A stretch of DNA of 64,000 nucleotides from the NCBI RefSeq assembly GCF_000017505.1, contig NC_009675.1, forward strand, positions 4,468,501 to 4,532,500, written 5' to 3'. Position 1 is the stretch's first letter; every line of letters starts with the position of its first letter. The translations under genes and the position numbers were made by a program. The notes beneath the pieces are model-generated. The model saw nothing but the letters and a program-made list of their open reading frames with translations. It was not told where the DNA came from and made no database searches. Shown piece by piece: positions 22,280 through 30,763 of this stretch. The DNA comes from Anaeromyxobacter sp. Fw109-5. GTDB taxonomy: Bacteria > Myxococcota > Myxococcia > Myxococcales > Anaeromyxobacteraceae.

Positions 22280-22341
22280 GCCCGACCTCGACCCCGCCTG
22301 GATCTCTCGTGGCCGGTCATCCCGCGCGGAGTCGAAAGGTC

Positions 22342-22377
22342 GCGACCGCGACCGCGACTCCGACCCCGACCCCGACC
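22342..22377 (+). repeat. Hexanucleotide tandem repeat, 6 units
   Basis: Six uninterrupted period-6 units: GCGACC twice, GCGACT once, CCGACC three times. It borders the downstream side of the HNH element and lies outside genes. Confidence 0.85.
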
Positions 22378-24228
22378 TTGTCATTCGTCACATCGGCTCG
22401 CGCTGGACTCGGGACGAGGTGCCGACCGCGCGCCCGCGGTGGGCACGCGCGAGGGAGCAGTACGAGCCAGGGAAAGCGGCCTACGAGGGGGCCGGAGGGC
22501 CGGCGTCGCCGCGCGTCCGCCGCGTCGCCGGAAGACGCTGCGGTCGGCTGCTCCCGTTCCGCCGACCGCGGTCACGTTGCCCACAAGCCCTGCTGAATGG
22601 CAGCTGGCGCGGCGCCGGCGTACCCCGTCCGCTCGGAGGCGCTCTCACGCCGGAAACGATCCATGTGCTCGCGCCCGTAGGTCTGTTCGGCGTGCAACAG
22701 GTTGTGCGACTTGCAGGCGACTCGGAGGTTCTCGACCGTCGAGGGTCCGCCCAGGGCCTGCGGGTGGATGTGGTCGAGCTCCAGCTGCCAGCGGCTGTCG
22801 CAGCGCCGCCCGTCCGGAGCGACCCAGGCGCAGCGTCCGCCGTCGCGCTTCCAGACCTCGCGCCGCACTATCGCCGGGATCGTGCTCGTGGGCGCGGCGG
22901 ACTCGGCGGAGGGACGTGGCTCCCGGTCGGTCCCCCGCTGCCGCTGCGGCGCGACCGCGCCCTTGCGCCTGCCGTGCTTCTCGATGGCGCAGCGGATGGC
23001 CTCCCGGAGCACCGCCGCGAGATCGCCGTCCGGGAACTCGTGCGAGAGCAGCGCGGTGAGCGTCTCGAGGTCCTCCTTGCAGGCCCGGTCGATGGTGACC
23101 CGCAGCGACCAGCCGCTCTCGCTCACCGCACGGGTGACCGCCCGCGTCCTCTGGCGAGACGGGTCGGACGGCGCGGGCATCGTGGCGGGGGACACCCCGG
23201 CAGCAGCGGCCGACGACGGCGGCGCGAGCGGCGACTCCTGCGGCTCGGCACGTGAAGGTTCGGCTGCCGCCAGCGGCAGCGCCGGGGCGCTCGCGGCTGA
23301 GGCGCGGTCGGGCAGCTTGCGCAGGCCCGCCCGCGGAGCGGTGCGCGCCTGGAGCGAGGCGACGAGGTGATCCACCTCGGCCTTGGTGCGGTAGGCGGCA
23401 CGGCCGACGAGGTCGGGCAGGTTCTCCTCGGTCAGCACCTGGCCGAGCAGCTGGACGGTGGAGATGCAAAGGCGGCCATCTCGCAGGGCGTCCTCGAGGC
23501 TGGGGAACCGGCGCAGCACCCGCATCGCCTGGATGCGTCGCCCCGCAGCCGCCCTCGCGCAGGTGGAGCACCTCCAGGCAATACGCCCAGAGCGAGGGGT
23601 ACCCGGCGTCCACGTACGCGCGGCGGCGATCGAACACCTCGAGGTGGAGGAGGAACTCGACCTGGACGTCGCGCTCCTGGCCTGCGAGCTCGCGCAGGCG
23701 CTGGGCGAGCAGGGGCGAGTCGAGGGCGGAAGGGGCGATCGCAGGCACGGTGCACCTCCTTGTGCACCCTTCGTAACACGCGATTTCCGCACCTCCCGAG
23801 ACGCGCCAGGATCGCGCCTGCGCCGCTTTCCGGGCCCGCCCCTTCGCCGTCCACGCGGCGCGCCGGACGCGCACGGCGCGCCCTGCCTGCGCTCGCGAGG
23901 AGCGTGCTCTCGACGTGCCGCGGACGTCGAAGCACGTTTCGCCTCGAACCTCGTCAAGAGGGCAACATTCACCCACCGCAACTGGGACTCGCGTGGCTCG
24001 CAAGAGCTATCGCTGGAGATAGCAGGGACTATCAGTGAACGCCGGCATGGGCGGAGACGTGCGCGCAACTTCCTCGGACCTGCTCTGCCCGCTCGTACAG
24101 TCCTCGCGCCGACGGCGACGAAGACCCGCCGCGTGCCATGCCCGAGGCGCGCCGGGAACCGGGCGCTTCTCCCCTCGATGCCCGAGCCCTCTGCGTCGAG
24201 CGGCGGCACACAACCCCGCGCGCGCGCG
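22378..24228 (-). mobile_element. HNH-endonuclease element, ORF-bearing copy
   Basis: The unit contains 0.44 kb upstream (24228-23785 when read on the minus strand), the HNH gene, and 0.11 kb downstream (22492-22381). Both flanks are found joined together without the gene at 12985-13516. Hexamer tandem repeats abut both ends (22342-22377 and 24228-24287). No terminal inverted repeats or target duplication were found. A mobile or formerly mobile HNH-carrying element is inferred from the duplication. Confidence 0.6.
22572..23748 (-). pseudogene. HNH endonuclease gene with one-base frameshift
   Basis: Translation should start at the GTG at 23748, preceded by a perfect AAGGAGGT. The first about 65 codons (VPAIAPSALDSPLLAQRL ... 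YVDAGYPSLWAYCLEVLHLREG) run in one frame. The rest (AAGRRIQAMRVLRRFPSLEDALRDG ... to the end) lies in another. One extra G near 23549-23553 explains it: the total is 1177 bases, one more than 392 codons. The C-terminus holds an HNH domain with paired Cys (GRCAWVAPDGRRCD) and LDHIHPQALGGPSTVENLRVACKSHN. The middle is a Ser/Ala-rich linker. The family resembles DUF222/13E12-type repeat-associated HNH proteins. The cause could be real decay, recoding or a sequencing error. Confidence 0.8.
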
Positions 24229-24370
24229 CGACCGCGACCCCGACCCCGACCGCGACCCCGACCGCGACCCCGACCCCCACCGCGACCCGTAAACGAGGCG
24301 TCGACGCCCTGGCGCCGTGGGCTCACCTCGGGTAAGGGTCACCGGCTTTCGCGCCGGAGGAGTCCGAGGC
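23749..24370. other. Intergenic region upstream of HNH gene and rlmI-like gene
   Basis: The 622 bases hold the conserved upstream flank of the HNH element (about 23785-24228), then a 60-bp hexamer repeat, then about 80 bp leading to the methyltransferase gene. The flank is similar to the scar copy although neither seems to encode a protein. It could be a structured RNA or recognition DNA. Confidence 0.6.
24228..24287 (+). repeat. Hexanucleotide tandem repeat, 10 units
   Basis: Ten period-6 units alternate between GCGACC and CCGACC with one CCCACC. They sit between the upstream end of the HNH element and the rRNA methyltransferase gene, in the same orientation as the tract at 22342-22377. Confidence 0.88.
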
Positions 24371-25537
24371 ATGGATGAGCAGAAGGTCACCGTCAGCCGC
24401 CGGGGCGCCGAGCGCCTCGCCGCCGGCCACCTGTGGATCTACCGCGCCGACGTGGAGAGGCCGCCGCGCGCGGAGGCCGGCGACGTGGTGGCGCTCGTGG
24501 ACGGCCGCGGCCGCTTCCTCGCGAAGGCGTTCTGGTCGGCGCGCTCCAAGATCGCGCTCCGCGTCGTGACGCGCGACGAGGTGCCCGTGGACGAGGCCTT
24601 CCTCGCCGAGCGGATCGCCCAGGCGGTGGAGCTGCGCCGCCACGCCTTCGGCGACGAGCGCTTCGTCCGGATCTGCCACGGCGAGGCGGACCTCCTCCCC
24701 GGCCTGGTGGTCGATCGCTACGGGGACGCCGCGGTGGTGCAGACGCTCGTGCCCGCCACCGACCGCCGCAAGGGGCTCCTCGCCGAGCTCGTCGCGACGG
24801 CGCTCGACGTGCGGACCGTGATCGAGCGGAACGACGTCCGCGTCCGCGAGCTGGAGGGGCTCGAGCAGGTGAAGGGGGTCCTGCGCGGCGAGGCGCCGGG
24901 CCCCGTCGTCTACCGCGAGGGAGCGGTCCGGATGACGATCGATCTCCTCACCGGCCAGAAGACGGGCGCGTTCCTCGATCAGCGCGAGAACCACCTGCGC
25001 GCGGGCGAGTACGCCCGCGGCCGCTGCCTCGACTGCTTCGCCTACGCGGGCGGGTTCGCCCTGCAGCTCGCCACGCGCGCGGAGCACGTCACGGCCGTCG
25101 AGATGCAGCCCACCGCGGCGGCGCTCCTGCGCGAGAACGTGACGCTGAACCTCGCCGCCAACGTCGAGGTCGTGGAGGCGAACGCGTTCGACTACCTGCG
25201 CGACCGCGCCGAGGAGGAGCCGGCCTTCGACCTCGTCGTGCTCGACCCGCCGGCGTTCGCGAAGAGCAAGGACGCGCTCGCCGCAGCGCGGCGTGGCTAC
25301 AAGGAGGTGAACCTCCGCGCCCTCCAGGTCCTGAGGCCGGGGGGGATCCTCGTCACCGCGTCGTGCAGCTACCACATGGCCGAGGCGATGCTGGAGGAGC
25401 TCGTCCTCGACGCCGCGAACGACGCGGGCCGGCGGGTGCAGCTGCTCGAGCGCCGCGGCGCGGGCCGCGATCACCCGGTGCTGCTCGGTGTCCCCGAGAC
25501 GCGGTACCTGAAGTGCTTCGTCCTGCGCGTCGTTTGA
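24371..25537 (+). CDS. rlmI: 23S rRNA m5C methyltransferase, RlmI family
   Basis: A 388-residue protein, similar in length to RlmI. The N-terminal PUA domain (residues about 1-75, VTVSRRGAERLAAGHLWIYRADV) and a small central domain precede the SAM-binding Rossmann domain. The SAM loop is CLDCFAYAGGFALQLA, the acidic strand end is VEMQPTA, the catalytic region is VVLDPPAFAKSK, and SCSYHM carries the nucleophile Cys. It would methylate cytosine C1962 (E. coli numbering) of 23S rRNA using SAM. The ATG at 24371 gives the conserved family start. It is separated from its downstream neighbour by 105 bp. Confidence 0.9.
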   Translation: MDEQKVTVSRRGAERLAAGHLWIYRADVERPPRAEAGDVVALVDGRGRFLAKAFWSARSKIALRVVTRDEVPVDEAFLAERIAQAVELRRHAFGDERFVRICHGEADLLPGLVVDRYGDAAVVQTLVPATDRRKGLLAELVATALDVRTVIERNDVRVRELEGLEQVKGVLRGEAPGPVVYREGAVRMTIDLLTGQKTGAFLDQRENHLRAGEYARGRCLDCFAYAGGFALQLATRAEHVTAVEMQPTAAALLRENVTLNLAANVEVVEANAFDYLRDRAEEEPAFDLVVLDPPAFAKSKDALAAARRGYKEVNLRALQVLRPGGILVTASCSYHMAEAMLEELVLDAANDAGRRVQLLERRGAGRDHPVLLGVPETRYLKCFVLRVV

Positions 25538-25642
25538 CGCTCCGCGAAGGACCCGCGCGGGCGCTCCGCCGCCCCGCCTCCTATCGGAGCGGACGCGCGG
25601 CGGGGTAGGATCCTCCCTTCGAGGCGGAAGGAGACGTCCGGA

Positions 25643-27784
25643 ATGGCCATCCGGCCCGACGAGCTCGGTGCGGGACCACTCGACGCGCTGGCGCGCGCGC
25701 CGCTCCTCGCGCGGCTCGACGCCGCCGAGCGCCGGGCCCTGCTCGCTTGCGCGCAGGTCGTGACCGTGCCCGCGCAGGCTCGGGTCCACGGGGCCGGCGA
25801 CGCGGGCCATCACCTCGATCTGGTCCTCGAGGGCGCCGCGACGCTGCGCCGCGCGGACCTGCCCCTGCGCCGCCTGGGTCCGGGGGATCACTTCGGCGAG
25901 CTCGCGCCGCTCCGCACCCACCACCGCGGCGAGACCGTCACCGCCGAGACCCCGCTCACGCTCGCGCGCCTCTCCGCCCGGTGCTGGGAGGGGCTGGAGC
26001 GAGATCGCCCCGCGCTCGCCGCGAAGCTCGCGGGCGCCCTGGCGGCGACGCTCTCCGAGGAGCTCGTGCGCCTGACGAGCGAGATGGGGCTCCTGCTGCG
26101 GGGGCGGTCCCTGCCGCGCGCCGCCGAGGTCACGGTGCGCGCGCTGGGCGAGGAGCTGCGCGTGCGCACGGGGACGCGCCTCGCGGACCTCCTCCCGGCG
26201 GAGGTCGACGGCGCGCTGGTCGTCGCCGGGCTGCTCGGGCAGAAGCCGGTGTCGCTCGCGACGCCGGTGTTCACCGACTCGACCGTGGCGCCCCTCACGC
26301 TCCGCCACTGGGAGGGGCGGGCCATCTACGCCCACTCGGTGGGGCTCCTCCTCCTCGAGGCCGCCCACACGCTCGCGCCCTCGCTCCACGTCCGCATGGG
26401 CGCGTCGCGCGGCAAGCGGCAGATCGTCGAGCTCGCCGGGGTGCCTCGCGCCGAGCTGCCCGGGTGGGCGGCGCGGATCGCGGCGCGCATGGAGCGGCTG
26501 GCGCAGGACGACGCGCCGATCCGGCTCGAGTACTGGCCGACCGACGAGGCGGCGGCGTACTTCTCGGAGCGCGGCTGGGACGACGCGGCGCGGCTGCTGC
26601 GCGTCCGCCGGCAGGCCACCGTCCGGCTCGTCTCCTGCGGCGAGCTGTACGCGCTGTCGATGGGGCCGCTCCTCCCTTCGACCGGCGCGCTGCGCGGCTT
26701 CCGGCTGGAGCCGTGCGAGGAGGGGCTGGCGCTCGACCTCGGCGAACGCGATCCGCGCAACGGCCGTCGGGGCGGACACGTGGCGCCTCCGCCGGCCGAC
26801 GGCGGGATGGTGGCGGAGCACCAGCGATGGCTCGAGGCGTTCGGCGTCACGAGCGTCGGCGCGTTCAACGACCTCTGCATCTCCGGGCAGGTGTCCCAGC
26901 TCATCCGCGTCGCCGAGGGCTTCCACGAGAAGCGCATCGGGCACATCGCGGACGCGATCGCGGCCCGCCGCGACCAGCTCCGCGTCATCGCCATCGCGGG
27001 GCCGTCCTCGTCGGGGAAGTCGACCTTCATCAAGCGCCTGACGGTGCAGCTGCAGATCGACGGCGTGAACCCCGTGGCCCTCGGCCTCGACGACTACTAC
27101 GTGGATCGCGAGAAGACCCCGCGCGACGAGGCCGGCGAGTGGGACTTCGAGGCGCTCGAGGCCATCGACCTCCCGCTCCTCCACGACCACGTGCGCCGGC
27201 TCATCGCGGGGGAGCCGGTTCGCACGGCGCGGTACGACTTCCTCACCGGGACCAGCCACCCCGACGGCGGCCCCCTCATCCAGTTCCGCCCCGGCGACGT
27301 CCTGCTCGTGGAGGGCATCCACGGGCTCGACCCGCGCCTGCTCGACGGCATCCCGCCGGCGGGGGCGCTCTACCGCGTCTTCATCCACCCCGCGACCACC
27401 CTGCCCTTCGACCGGCTCACGCGGACCTCCGCGACCGATCTGCGCCTCCTGCGGCGCATCGTGCGCGACCGCCACCGCCGCGGGTACGGCGCGGCGGAGA
27501 ACATCCTGCGCTGGCCGTCGGTGCAGGCCGGGGAGCGCGAGCACATCTTCCCCCACCAGCACGAGGCGGACGCGGTGTTCGACTCCTCGCTGGTCTACGA
27601 GCCGGCGGTGCTGAAGGTCTTCGCCGAGCGCTACCTGCTGGAGGTCCCGCCCAGCCACCCCGCGTACCCGACGGCCCACCGGCTCCGCTACCTCGTCGAT
27701 CGCTTCGTCTCCATCTACCCCGACCACGTCCCGCCGACCTCGCTCCTGCGCGAGTTCATCGGCGGCAGCGGGTTCGAGTACTGA
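25643..27784 (+). CDS. Cyclic-nucleotide-binding / TGS / uridine-kinase-like fusion protein
   Basis: A 713-residue fusion. Residues about 15-150 form a cNMP-binding-like beta barrel (GHHLDLVLEGAATLRR ... LGPGDHFGELAPL). Residues about 155-220 resemble a TGS domain. Residues about 225-400 resemble the second-additional (editing) domain of threonyl-tRNA synthetase (WEGRAIYAHSVG). Residues about 425-713 are a phosphoribulokinase/uridine-kinase P-loop domain with Walker A GPSSSGKST near residue 452 and LGLDDYYVDREKTPRDE. TGS + ThrRS-like + kinase proteins are known as nucleoside kinases; the added sensor domain is unusual. It probably phosphorylates a nucleoside under small-molecule control. A histidine kinase gene follows 6 bp later. 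Confidence 0.82.
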   Translation: MAIRPDELGAGPLDALARAPLLARLDAAERRALLACAQVVTVPAQARVHGAGDAGHHLDLVLEGAATLRRADLPLRRLGPGDHFGELAPLRTHHRGETVTAETPLTLARLSARCWEGLERDRPALAAKLAGALAATLSEELVRLTSEMGLLLRGRSLPRAAEVTVRALGEELRVRTGTRLADLLPAEVDGALVVAGLLGQKPVSLATPVFTDSTVAPLTLRHWEGRAIYAHSVGLLLLEAAHTLAPSLHVRMGASRGKRQIVELAGVPRAELPGWAARIAARMERLAQDDAPIRLEYWPTDEAAAYFSERGWDDAARLLRVRRQATVRLVSCGELYALSMGPLLPSTGALRGFRLEPCEEGLALDLGERDPRNGRRGGHVAPPPADGGMVAEHQRWLEAFGVTSVGAFNDLCISGQVSQLIRVAEGFHEKRIGHIADAIAARRDQLRVIAIAGPSSSGKSTFIKRLTVQLQIDGVNPVALGLDDYYVDREKTPRDEAGEWDFEALEAIDLPLLHDHVRRLIAGEPVRTARYDFLTGTSHPDGGPLIQFRPGDVLLVEGIHGLDPRLLDGIPPAGALYRVFIHPATTLPFDRLTRTSATDLRLLRRIVRDRHRRGYGAAENILRWPSVQAGEREHIFPHQHEADAVFDSSLVYEPAVLKVFAERYLLEVPPSHPAYPTAHRLRYLVDRFVSIYPDHVPPTSLLREFIGGSGFEY

Positions 27785-27790
27785 GGCCCG

Positions 27791-29566
27791 ATGCCGCTCG
27801 GCCGCGAGCCGCCCTGCCTCCGTCACCTCCGCGACGTCGTCGAGCGCGCGGCGCGCGACAGCACCCCGGAGGAGGCGGCCGCGCTCCGCGCCGAGGTACG
27901 GGACCTCGTCGAGGAGCGCGAGCTCGCCGAGGCCATCATCGAGCAGAGCGCCGCGCTGGTGGTGGTGCTCGATCGCGAGGGGCTCATCCGCCGCTGGAAC
28001 GCGGCCTGCGCCCGGATCACGGGCTACTCCGCCGACGAGATGCTCGGGCAGCCGGTGTGGAACCTGCTCGTGCCCGAGGAGCGCGAGGGGGTGCGCGGCA
28101 CCTTCGCGCGGCTCGTCGCGGGGAGCCTCGCGTCCACCTTCGAGAACCAGTGGGTCGCGCGCGACGGCGAGCGGCGGCTCGTCTCCTGGAGCAACGCCGC
28201 GCTCCTCGACGACGCCGGCGAGGTGCGGGCGATCGTGGCGACGGGGCTCGACATCACCGAGCGCAAGCGGGCGGAGCTGGCGCTGCGCGGCCACGCGAAG
28301 CGGCTCGAGGCGCTCGCGGAGGCCTCGCGCGTCTTCGCCTCCGGCCTCGACTACCGGACCACCCTCGACACCGTCGCGCGGCGGCTCGCGGAGCTCATCG
28401 GCGACGGGGCGCTCATCCGCATCGTCTCGCCGGACGGGGCGTGGCTCGTCCCGGTCGCCGTGTACCACCCCTCGCCGGAGCGGGCGGCGCTCCGGCGCCG
28501 GATCATCGCCGCCGCCCCGCAGCGGACGAACGAGGGGATCACCGCGGGGCCGCTCGCGACCGGGCGCACCCTCCGCATCCCGCACCTCTCTCGCGAGACG
28601 GTGCGCAACGAGATGAAGCCGGAGTACTACCCGTACCTCGAGGGCGTGACGAGCCTGCTCATCGCCCCCCTCGCCCAGCGGAACGAGGTGTTCGGGCACA
28701 TCACCCTCATGCGCGACGCGGGCGGAGCTCCGTACACCGTGGAGGACGAGGCGCTGCTGGAGGACCTCGCCCACCGGGCGGCGCAGGCGATCGAGAACGC
28801 CCGGCTCTACTCGGAGGCGCAGAACGCGGTCGCCGCGCGCGACGAGTTCCTGTCGATCGCCTCTCACGAGCTGCGCACGCCGCTCACCGCCCTGCGGCTC
28901 GCGCTCGGGAACATGCGGCGCGTCACCTCCCGCGAGGCGCTCGAGCGCCTCCCGCCGGAGCACGTGGAGCGGGTCCTCGCCGCCGCGGAGCGGCAGGGGC
29001 AGCGGCTCGAGAAGCTGGTCGCCGCGCTGCTCGACGTGTCCCGCATCCACATGGGCAAGCTCGAGCTCGAGCTCGACGAGGTGGAGCTCGGCGCGGTGGT
29101 GAGCGACGCCCTCACGCAGCTCGAGGACGAGGCCTCGCAGACGGGATCCACCCTGTCGGCGGCGGGCGAGCCGGTGCTCGGCGCGTGGGACCGGCTCCGG
29201 CTCTCGCAGGTGATCACGAACCTGCTCTCGAACGCGGTGAAGTACGGCGCCGGCAAGCCGGTCGAGGTGAGCTACGGCCCGAGCGCCGCGGGCGCGTACG
29301 TCCGCGTCCGCGATCACGGCATCGGGATCGCCCCCACCGACCAGCGCCAGATCTTCGAGCGCTTCGAGCGCGCGGTGTCGTCGCGCAACTACGGCGGCCT
29401 GGGGCTCGGGCTCTACATCGTGCGCCGCATCGTGGAGGCGCACGGGGGAACGATCCGCGTCGAGAGCACGCCGGGGGAGGGCTCCGAGTTCCGGGTCGAG
29501 CTGCCGCTGCGGCCGCTGTGCGCCCGCCCGCTGCGCGGGGAGGCGCCGCAGGGGGCGAAGCGCTGA
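27791..29566 (+). CDS. PAS-GAF sensor histidine kinase
   Basis: A 591-residue soluble sensor kinase with no transmembrane helix. A short helical region (about 15-45) leads to a PAS domain (about 48-160, LVVVLDREGLIRRWNAACARITGYSADEMLG) and a GAF domain (about 175-340). The HisKA phosphoacceptor is His359 in IASHELRTPLTALR, and the HATPase_c domain has NLLSNAVKYG, DHGIGI and GLGLGLYIVRRIVEAHGG. It should autophosphorylate and pass phosphate to a response regulator not encoded beside it. The 6-bp gap to the preceding CNB-kinase fusion argues for one operon and a shared signalling role. Confidence 0.93.
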   Translation: MPLGREPPCLRHLRDVVERAARDSTPEEAAALRAEVRDLVEERELAEAIIEQSAALVVVLDREGLIRRWNAACARITGYSADEMLGQPVWNLLVPEEREGVRGTFARLVAGSLASTFENQWVARDGERRLVSWSNAALLDDAGEVRAIVATGLDITERKRAELALRGHAKRLEALAEASRVFASGLDYRTTLDTVARRLAELIGDGALIRIVSPDGAWLVPVAVYHPSPERAALRRRIIAAAPQRTNEGITAGPLATGRTLRIPHLSRETVRNEMKPEYYPYLEGVTSLLIAPLAQRNEVFGHITLMRDAGGAPYTVEDEALLEDLAHRAAQAIENARLYSEAQNAVAARDEFLSIASHELRTPLTALRLALGNMRRVTSREALERLPPEHVERVLAAAERQGQRLEKLVAALLDVSRIHMGKLELELDEVELGAVVSDALTQLEDEASQTGSTLSAAGEPVLGAWDRLRLSQVITNLLSNAVKYGAGKPVEVSYGPSAAGAYVRVRDHGIGIAPTDQRQIFERFERAVSSRNYGGLGLGLYIVRRIVEAHGGTIRVESTPGEGSEFRVELPLRPLCARPLRGEAPQGAKR

Positions 29567-29572
29567 CGCCCC

Positions 29573-30589
29573 TCAGCGCGCCGGGAACTCGCGCGCGGGG
29601 AAGAGCAGCACGTCCTCGATGGCCGCCGCCTCCGCGACGAGCATGAGCACGCGGTCGAAGCCGACGGCGACGCCGCCCGCCTCCGGCAGGCGCCCCACCG
29701 CCTCCAGGAACGGCTCGTCGAGCGGGAACACGGGGCGCCCCAGGCGGCGCCGCAGCGCCTGCTCCTCCGCGAGGCGCGCGCGCTGCTCGGCCGCGTCGTT
29801 CAGCTCGGTGTAGCCGTTCGCGAGCTCCAGGCCGCCGGCGTACAGCTCGAACCGCTCGGCCCAGCGCGGGTCGCCGCGCTTCACGCGCGAGAGCGCGGCC
29901 ATCGAGGCGGGCCAGTCCACGAGGTACTCGGGGCGCTCCACCCCGAGCCGCGGCTCCACGGCGTCCAGCATGACGCGGAAGAACACGTCGTCGAAAGACT
30001 CTCCCGCCGGGCCGGGGTCGTGCCCGGCGGCGCGGGCGGCCTCCGCGAGCCGCGCCGCGTCCCCATCGCACGCCGCGAGGTCGACGCCGGCGTGGCGGCG
30101 GAACGCGTCCGCCACCGTGGTCCGGGGGTACGGCGCGGCGAGGTCGAGCGTGCGGCCGCCGCGCGCCACGCGGGTCCCTCCGGCGAGGGCGCGCGCGCAG
30201 GCCTCCACGAGGCGCTCCAGGTCCTGCATGACGCCCTCGTAGTCGGTGCCCGCGCGGTAGAGCTCGAGCATCGTGAACTCGGGGTTGTGCGTCCGCGAGA
30301 CCTCGCCGTTCCGGAACACGCGCGAGAGCTGGAAGATGCGGGGGAACCCCTCGGCGAGGAGCCGCTTCATCGCGTACTCGGGGCTCGTGATGAGCCACCG
30401 CGGCCGCCCCTCGCCGCCGCCCTCGGGGAGGAAGCGGGTCTCGAAGGGGTGGAGGTGCGGCTCCATCCCGGGGACGGGCACGAGGCAGGGCGTCTCCACC
30501 TCCTCGTAGCCGAGCGAGGACAGGAAGCGGCGCACCTCCGCGGCGAGTCGCGCGCGCTGGCGAGCGCGCTCGCGTCGGGTCACGGGCAT
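29573..30589 (-). CDS. epmA: EF-P lysyltransferase EpmA (GenX/PoxA), truncated LysRS-like
   Basis: A 338-residue class II aminoacyl-tRNA synthetase-like protein lacking the anticodon-binding domain. The ATG at 30589 is chosen because EpmA proteins begin at this block (RRERARQRARLAAEVRRFLSSLGYEEVETPCLVP). Motif 2 reads FRNGEVSRTHNPEFTMLELYRAGTDY; motif 3 reads GVAVGFDRVLMLV. EpmA activates (R)-beta-lysine and attaches it to a Lys of elongation factor P. Neither efp nor epmB is in the window. The longer open frame to 30745 encodes only Asp-Leu-Asp repeats from a simple tandem repeat and was discarded. It is convergent with the histidine kinase. Confidence 0.9.
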   Translation of the reverse strand: MPVTRRERARQRARLAAEVRRFLSSLGYEEVETPCLVPVPGMEPHLHPFETRFLPEGGGEGRPRWLITSPEYAMKRLLAEGFPRIFQLSRVFRNGEVSRTHNPEFTMLELYRAGTDYEGVMQDLERLVEACARALAGGTRVARGGRTLDLAAPYPRTTVADAFRRHAGVDLAACDGDAARLAEAARAAGHDPGPAGESFDDVFFRVMLDAVEPRLGVERPEYLVDWPASMAALSRVKRGDPRWAERFELYAGGLELANGYTELNDAAEQRARLAEEQALRRRLGRPVFPLDEPFLEAVGRLPEAGGVAVGFDRVLMLVAEAAAIEDVLLFPAREFPAR

Positions 30590-30643
30590 GCGCGGGAGAG
30601 TAACCGCTGGGCACGGCGGGCGCCGAGCGGTTCGGTGGAAGGG

Positions 30644-30736
30644 GTCGAGGTCGTCGAGGTCGTCGGGGTCGACGGGGTCGACGGGGTCGAGGTCGAGGTC
30701 GAGGTCGGGGTCGGGGCCGAGGTCGAGGTCGAGGTC
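30644..30736 (-). repeat. Tandem repeat, period 9 then period 6
   Basis: Five 9-bp units (GTCGAGGTC type) are followed by eight 6-bp units (GAGGTC/GGGGTC). On the other strand these read as the same NNGACC hexamers found at three other sites. The tract lies in the divergent epmA-bioH gap. Confidence 0.88.
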
Positions 30737-30763
30737 ACTCGTCAACCCCTTCGCCGTCCCAGG

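Follow-up and report, generated by a model that had tools for sequence, protein, structure and literature searches.

A cyclic-nucleotide-binding-type barrel joined to a three-domain "uridine kinase" of Myxococcota that is probably not a uridine kinase

What is the function of a protein that carries a cyclic-nucleotide-binding (CNB) barrel, a module resembling part of threonyl-tRNA synthetase (ThrRS) and a uridine-kinase-like domain on a single polypeptide? The question is raised by a gene at 25643-27784 of a 64,000-nucleotide stretch of the genome of Anaeromyxobacter sp. Fw109-5 (contig NC_009675.1, positions 4,468,501 to 4,532,500), which as a whole is termed the window in the following. The initial annotation had suggested that the barrel might tie nucleoside phosphorylation to a nucleotide signal. 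Comparison of sequences and predicted folds indicates that the protein belongs to the "three-domain uridine kinase" family, as a variant to which a CNB domain was added once at the N-terminus in an ancient fusion event, and that its enzyme part is probably not a uridine kinase.

The fusion protein of 713 residues is encoded in a single open frame, in which the ATG at 25643 is the sole ATG/GTG/TTG candidate ahead of the family match; an AAGGAG hexamer at 25628-25633, located upstream of this start codon, was recognized by eye. The predicted features of the gene, all on the forward strand, are as follows.

25643..27784 (+): CNB-TGS-pseudoediting-kinase fusion protein, 713 residues, single open frame; fused in frame in 25 of 195 Myxococcota genomes
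25673..26077 (+): predicted cyclic-nucleotide-binding barrel and C-helix, residues ~11-145 (PF00027, 36.9 bits; GlxR 4byy, Z 16.8)
25892..25939 (+): putative phosphate-binding cassette FGELAPLRTHHRGETV, residues 84-99 with Gly85, Glu86 and Arg95 (aligned cassettes; model confidence ~72)
26120..26308 (+): TGS domain, residues ~160-222, boundary approximate (profile match to ThrRS 1nyq, E 3e-32)
26309..26740 (+): ThrRS editing-like (second additional, SAD) domain without editing residues, residues ~223-366 (ThrRS 1qf6, Z 19.5; His/His and Cys/His positions not conserved)
26963..27592 (+): P-loop kinase domain of predicted uridine-kinase fold, residues 441-650 (PF00485, 62.1 bits; matches to UCK2 and pantothenate kinase)
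26999-27025, 27089-27091 and 27311-27313 (+), within the kinase domain: Walker A, Asp483 and Glu557 (residue table)
27593..27781 (+): conserved C-terminal tail ending in VPPTSLLREFIGGSGFEY, with REFIGGS conserved across the family

The gathering score of the Pfam model cNMP_binding (PF00027) was passed with 36.9 bits (cut-off 27.5, residues 40-115), and that of the PRK/uridine-kinase model PF00485 with 62.1 bits (cut-off 22, residues 448-562); tRNA_SAD, the ThrRS/AlaRS second additional domain, reached only 14.2 bits and stayed under its cut-off of 24. The middle TGS/ThrRS-like part is certain, because a profile of 77 family sequences, compared with solved structures, matched the TGS and editing domains of ThrRS (1nyq) with an E value of 3e-32. 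The same profile matched the mitoribosomal protein mL39 at ~1e-10 and uridine kinases at E values of 2e-20 to 4e-19. AlphaFold2 returned a full-length model with a mean predicted local distance difference test score (pLDDT) of 90.2 and a predicted template modeling score of 0.81, the confidence dropping to 71-72 in the blocks 81-100 at the phosphate-binding cassette. Structural matches to this model, obtained with VIA-align, comprised GlxR (4byy; residues 11-144, Z 16.8, root-mean-square deviation (rmsd) 2.3, 134 aligned), ThrRS (1qf6; residues 163-381, Z 19.5, rmsd 3.3, 211 aligned), UCK2 (6pwz; residues 445-704, Z 15.9, rmsd 3.7, 189 aligned) and pantothenate kinase (5xlv; residues 379-653, Z 17.6, rmsd 3.7, 223 aligned); mL39 was matched with Z 17.3. 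The architecture proposed initially, i.e., CNB, TGS, ThrRS-editing-like and kinase parts in one protein, thus withstood structure prediction as well as Pfam, profile and structural comparison, the domain folds being matched to those of GlxR, ThrRS and UCK2.

The core of the protein is encoded in 45 of 195 Myxococcota genomes (E <= 1e-40), and in 25 of these the alignment extends into the CNB domain: all nine members of the window's genus, three others of its family, eight members of a second family (f4), and five genomes of four further families (f12, f13, f15, f25). In one genome of the window's family (G022), the match is cut by a contig end, which precludes scoring of its CNB state. A scan of GTDB genomes yielded 588 relatives; among the best 80 of these, which were examined, the CNB domain is present in five metagenome-assembled genomes of Myxococcales. 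The other 75, mostly of ~550 residues and without a CNB domain, originate from Bacillota, Bacteroidota, Chloroflexota, Spirochaetota, Thermotogota, Acidobacteriota, other Myxococcota and some organisms unassigned at phylum level, and share 33-42% pairwise identity with the window protein. When 77 family members were scanned singly, cNMP_binding was detected in six, a number equal to that of the known CNB carriers (the window protein and five others). In a tree of the core, calculated from 124 of 125 rows (the fragment of G022 was omitted), the window protein clusters, across the full core, with family members that have no CNB domain, and the 30 CNB rows form one clade of 32 together with two CNB-less rows, those of the genomes G010 and G015 (Shimodaira-Hasegawa-like approximate likelihood ratio test, 100). 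The tree requires two changes in CNB presence, which we read as one gain and one loss. Near their starts, the CNB-less proteins of G010 (L042) and G015 (L043) retain the sequence VQGRSIPR, the counterpart of the LLLRGRSLPR linker of the window protein, which fits a loss of the CNB domain. The fusion is real and of single origin, and as far as seen it occurs in Myxococcota only. The initial annotation recommended a search for the same fusion in other phyla; further Myxococcota proteins turned up, 30 in all, while the proteins from other phyla among the best 80 of 588 were CNB-less cores. No relative was found in the viral contigs searched, and full-text searches of a PMC library returned no paper on a CNB fusion of this kind. 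Four of the 80 loci with odd starts or a fragment (L113, L122, L144, L160) were left out of A3 and of the first model, and A4 was built on 51 of 79 kinase stretches.

The alignment marks the ThrRS-like module as a pseudo-editing domain devoid of catalytic residues. The catalytic set of ThrRS editing consists of HxxxH and CxxxH motifs, which we take to be His73, His77, Cys182 and His186 of the Escherichia coli enzyme. In a hidden Markov model alignment these positions correspond to residues 231, 235, 339 and 343 of the window protein, which are His, Leu, Ser and Leu. Over 125 rows, the expected residues occur 9 (His), 1 (His), 4 (Cys) and 2 (His) times, respectively, and no row has a complete pair; when a wider stretch was searched for HxxxH, the single match (L148) lay off the editing positions according to the row listing. 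The label "ThrRS-editing-like" hence holds for fold and profile, but does not extend to an editing catalytic set. For the TGS and pseudo-editing module a docking role in translation appears preferable, because the ribosomal protein mL39 is a ThrRS-like module that shares this fold.

Evidence on the kinase domain derives from a residue table of 124 of 125 rows (the incomplete L088 was omitted) and ten canonical Udk proteins of Myxococcota; an eleventh candidate, L179, was omitted due to its resemblance to phosphoribulokinase. Lys459 of the Walker A motif, Asp483, Glu557 and Arg604/605/608 are invariant in all 124 kinase rows, so that ATP use and the chemistry of phosphoryl transfer look intact. 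The presumed nucleoside pocket differs from that of uridine kinases. Asp84 of UCK2, which contacts the ribose (pocket roles according to PMC9163393), is Asp in all ten canonical enzymes, whereas the window protein has Glu503 at this position and 122 of the 124 family rows likewise have Glu. The DHPDAF motif of Udks is replaced, Gly occupies the His117 position in 122 of 124 rows, and all 124 rows have His560 at a position that is occupied by Leu or Met in Udks. Literature searches on Tyr93 and His117, on CNB-gated acetyltransferases and on Anaeromyxobacter with cAMP listed nothing on point beyond PMC10248530 and PMC9163393. With 63.9 bits, the window protein falls far short of the cut-off of 220.3 of the NCBIfam Udk model TIGR00235. 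A separate Udk scoring over this cut-off is encoded in 28 of 30 core holders outside the window's family, including 13 of 13 CNB-fused ones. Within the family (G000-G023), a canonical Udk was detected in none of 24 genomes at E <= 1e-20, and in nine of the 24 the fusion protein is missing, too. The uracil phosphoribosyltransferase Upp exceeded its cut-off in one of the 24 genomes (G023) and was discarded as an uninformative indicator of salvage; the whole family seems to have lost the usual enzymatic salvage of uracil and uridine. As reported in PMC10248530, a "three-domain uridine kinase" of Thermotoga maritima with a ThrRS domain did not form uridine monophosphate (UMP), either as full-length protein or in the truncated forms obtained, and showed ATP phosphatase activity in the presence of uridine; its authors cite an earlier suggestion that the protein takes part in the autoregulation of translation. 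Nucleoside phosphorylation, as envisaged in the initial annotation, is thus disfavored by the behavior of this relative, the Udk score, the pocket residues and the coexistence of Udk with the fusion.

Modeled alone, the kinase part reached a pLDDT of 94.3, and VIA-align matched it to pantothenate kinase 5xlv (Z 18.1, rmsd 3.6, 222 aligned) and to UCK2 6n54 (Z 15.9, rmsd 2.5, 180 aligned). Extra helices ahead of the P-loop align with those of 5xlv. Identity as a pantothenate kinase was considered and rejected: VIA-align ranks this enzyme first, but Foldseek puts uridine kinases first, and the profile search lists uridine kinases and no pantothenate kinase among 43 matches. The best solved match of the kinase part of the profile is chain K of PDB 9y3v, termed "Uridine kinase P10" (210 residues, E 2e-20), which ranks above the Thermus and human enzymes. 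The kinase fold is also present in the N-terminal domain of the tRNA adenosine deaminase subunit Tad2 of Schizosaccharomyces pombe (PDB 7eey; Z 14.4, rmsd 2.9, 171 aligned), another case of a uridine-kinase-like fold joined to a tRNA enzyme.

The phosphate-binding residues of the barrel, the possible absence of which had been named as a reason to abandon the initial proposal, together with an artefactual fusion, are present in the window protein (Gly85, Glu86, Arg95), and the fusion recurs in 30 proteins. Across these 30 CNB rows, Gly85 is conserved in 30, Arg95 in 29 and Glu86 in 18. The basal members L070, L071, L074, L089 and L090 possess a full canonical cassette (FGE...PRAA); in the window's genus, the cassette reads FGE or YGE...HRGETV in nine of nine members, in place of PRAATV, and in family f4 and in other genera of the window's family the glutamate is lost. 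Class III cyclases (PF00211) are encoded in 22 of 25 CNB-fused genomes, with two matches in the window's own genome. For the CNB-fused family, nucleotide sensing is plausible.

The reading we prefer, with a probability of roughly one half, is that the protein belongs to a family that uses ATP and is probably linked to translation, as a variant equipped with a CNB domain, that the substrate of its kinase is other than uridine or cytidine, and that the barrel gates its activity. The TGS and dead editing module would dock a component of translation (tRNA, aminoacyl-tRNA or ribosome), the kinase domain would use ATP to act on a substrate that is neither free uridine nor free cytidine, and the barrel, attached through the LLLRGRSLPR linker, would gate the kinase by binding a small nucleotide in those members that have the canonical cassette. 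As the cassette of the window's genus has drifted, the gate may there have changed its ligand or become constitutive. Several observations weigh against this proposal. The link to translation consists of a resemblance in fold and of the hypothesis cited second-hand in PMC10248530, and no gene neighbor conserved across the whole family was found. Since the His117 position is variable in the ten canonical Udks (five Ser, three His, two Tyr), glycine at this position alone excludes no pyrimidine nucleosides. Twelve of the 30 CNB rows have another residue in place of Glu86. The sequence PR(A/S/T)A around the cassette arginine is a CNB motif, and the window protein deviates from it with HRGE, as do all nine genus members. 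Three of these nine (G002, G005, G006) retain the CNB domain, but PF00211 cyclases were absent from their genomes even in a relaxed search, as were class I cyclases (PF01295); two of the three are single-contig genomes.

The latter observations would also be accounted for if the barrel were only a structural or dimerization module that, at any rate in the genus of the window, does not bind nucleotides, an explanation we regard as quite possible, while leaning away from it. In addition to the HRGETV cassette, the loss of Glu86 and the cyclase-free congeners, it is supported by the loss of the barrel in G010 and G015 with retention of the enzyme, and by the evolutionary rate: the CNB domain is under purifying selection within the genus but changes faster than the kinase, with ratios of nonsynonymous to synonymous substitutions (Nei-Gojobori) of 0.14-0.67 vs 0.07-0.25, which are rough estimates owing to synonymous sites at high G+C. 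Conservation of Gly85 and Arg95, the full cassettes of the five basal members and the frequency of PF00211 cyclases argue for a binding function. The argument that cAMP must be the ligand since cyclases are present is weakened by G002, G005 and G006; for the window's genus, judging from the HRGETV cassette and from these three congeners, nucleotide sensing, including the control by cAMP or cGMP for which binding assays had been suggested, is doubtful. The CNB-less G010 and G015 are likewise without PF00211 and PF01295, which, as they are near relatives, is anecdotal.

According to one alternative concerning the enzyme itself, which we deem unlikely, the protein would be an ATP-hydrolyzing regulator transferring no phosphate to small molecules, with the dead ThrRS-like module as the sensor of tRNA or threonyl-tRNA and the ATPase cycle as the driving force of a conformational switch. 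Strong matches to ThrRS and to the ribosomal protein mL39, which has the same fold, would suit such a regulator, but neither the general base Asp483 nor the lid arginines vary in any of the 124 rows, as expected of a true phosphotransferase, and tRNA sensing is a prediction from sequence and fold. A genuine uridine/cytidine kinase switched by a cyclic nucleotide, as read initially, deserves little credence. Sequence comparison of the kinase domain identifies uridine kinases as its closest solved relatives, all catalytic residues are retained, the His117 position varies in canonical Udks too, and in the window's family, where 24 of 24 genomes lack canonical Udk, the fusion protein is the sole strong uridine-kinase-like protein. 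On the other hand, its T. maritima homologue was inactive on uridine both as full-length and truncated protein (PMC10248530), Asp84 and the DHPDAF motif are replaced, the Udk cut-off is missed, each of the 13 CNB-fused genomes outside the family has a true Udk alongside, the protein is missing from nine family genomes that also lack Udk, and with Upp over its cut-off in one genome of 24, uracil salvage looks absent in the family anyway. A more far-reaching version of the proposal, decidedly unlikely in our estimation, is that of a cyclic-nucleotide-gated, translation-linked phosphotransferase, in which the ThrRS-like module would present tRNA, aminoacyl-tRNA or a ribosomal component for phosphorylation by the kinase, and the barrel would add second-messenger dependence. 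If true, it would connect cyclic nucleotides to translation by a new route and supply the missing substrate of the widespread three-domain "uridine kinase" family. That two adjoining genes were joined by an error of reading or assembly has virtually no chance; this is refuted by the single open frame with its sole start at 25643 and by the repeated in-frame fusion in 30 proteins of one origin.

The main neighbors of the gene are listed below.

24317..25537 (+): RlmI-type 23S rRNA methyltransferase, upstream neighbor (NF053718, 399 bits, under the cut-off of 575)
27791..29566 (+): PAS-GAF-HisKA-HATPase_c histidine kinase, 6 bases after the stop codon of the fusion gene (Pfam)
29573-30745 (-): EpmA/GenX-type lysine ligase of elongation factor P, adjoining the pair of fusion and histidine kinase genes (TIGR00462, 361 bits, over the cut-off)

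The histidine kinase gene follows the fusion gene in nine of nine genus members, the window included, and in G022, and the two genes may well be co-transcribed in the genus. This adjacency is absent in G009, G010, G015, G016 and G021 and, with flanks that are short in some cases, at all other CNB loci examined; the histidine kinase is a neighbor and no defining part of the fusion. Of the two-gene signaling unit put forward initially, the 6-base spacing in the window and the adjacency in the genus and G022 stood, but the unit did not recur at the other CNB-fused loci examined. Linkage to the RlmI gene, found in the genus and in G009, G010, G015 and G021, is wider in the window's family than that to the histidine kinase. 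Clustering of gene neighborhoods, for which genes were called roughly with home-made procedures from frame GC or open reading frame length, revealed no partner conserved across Myxococcota. The themes that emerged in other phyla were local only: Clostridia loci are accompanied by genes which, as putatively named from their sequences, comprise dnaG-rpoD, a tRNA methyltransferase and a NIF3-like gene, and Spirochaetota loci share a conserved upstream gene. A scan for promoters and terminators found nothing.

The start of the longest EpmA/GenX frame is probably too far upstream, because the frame begins beside hexamer repeats and reads through them. Tandem arrays of GGTCGR-type hexamers are located at 22341-22377, 24227-24288 and 30644-30736, between genes or at their edges. 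Genome-wide, GGTCGRGGTCGRGGTCGR gave 401 + 381 matches vs 1 + 0 for the reversed control, indicating that such dispersed arrays are a genome-wide feature.

Among known systems, the three-domain uridine kinase of T. maritima (TmUK) and Treponema pallidum likewise combines a TGS/ThrRS-like module with a domain of the uridine kinase family (PMC10248530), and the Thermotogota members L111 and L117 stand in the same core tree as the window protein. No CNB domain is described for these proteins in passages of PMC10248530, whereas the window protein has one, TmUK being compared by its description only. Many bacterial phyla possess the core without a CNB domain, annotated as uridine kinase, and the one tested member found in print made no UMP (PMC10248530); "uridine kinase" labels on three-domain proteins are unsafe. 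Should a nucleotide ligand of the barrel alter ATP turnover, the Myxococcota fusion would offer a switchable assay for the substrate of the family. With Udk/UCK enzymes, the window protein has the P-loop kinase fold and catalytic residues in common, but Asp84, DHPDAF and Leu560-type residues are replaced, the score stays below the Udk cut-off, and extra helices precede the P-loop. The TGS and editing domains of ThrRS, and mL39, resemble the window module in fold and sequence; in ThrRS, however, the module is joined to the synthetase core and carries the HxxxH and CxxxH editing sets, whereas in the window protein it is joined to a kinase and these sets are not conserved. The mycobacterial Pat acetyltransferase is a cyclic-nucleotide-gated enzyme. 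The NCBIfam Pat model NF058543 matches two of 77 family members, and the regulatory subunit of protein kinase A is the best solved relative of the CNB domain by sequence. Pat and the protein kinase A regulatory subunits combine a CNB domain with an enzyme in cis or in a complex; in the window protein the effector enzyme is another one, and ligand binding by its barrel is putative.
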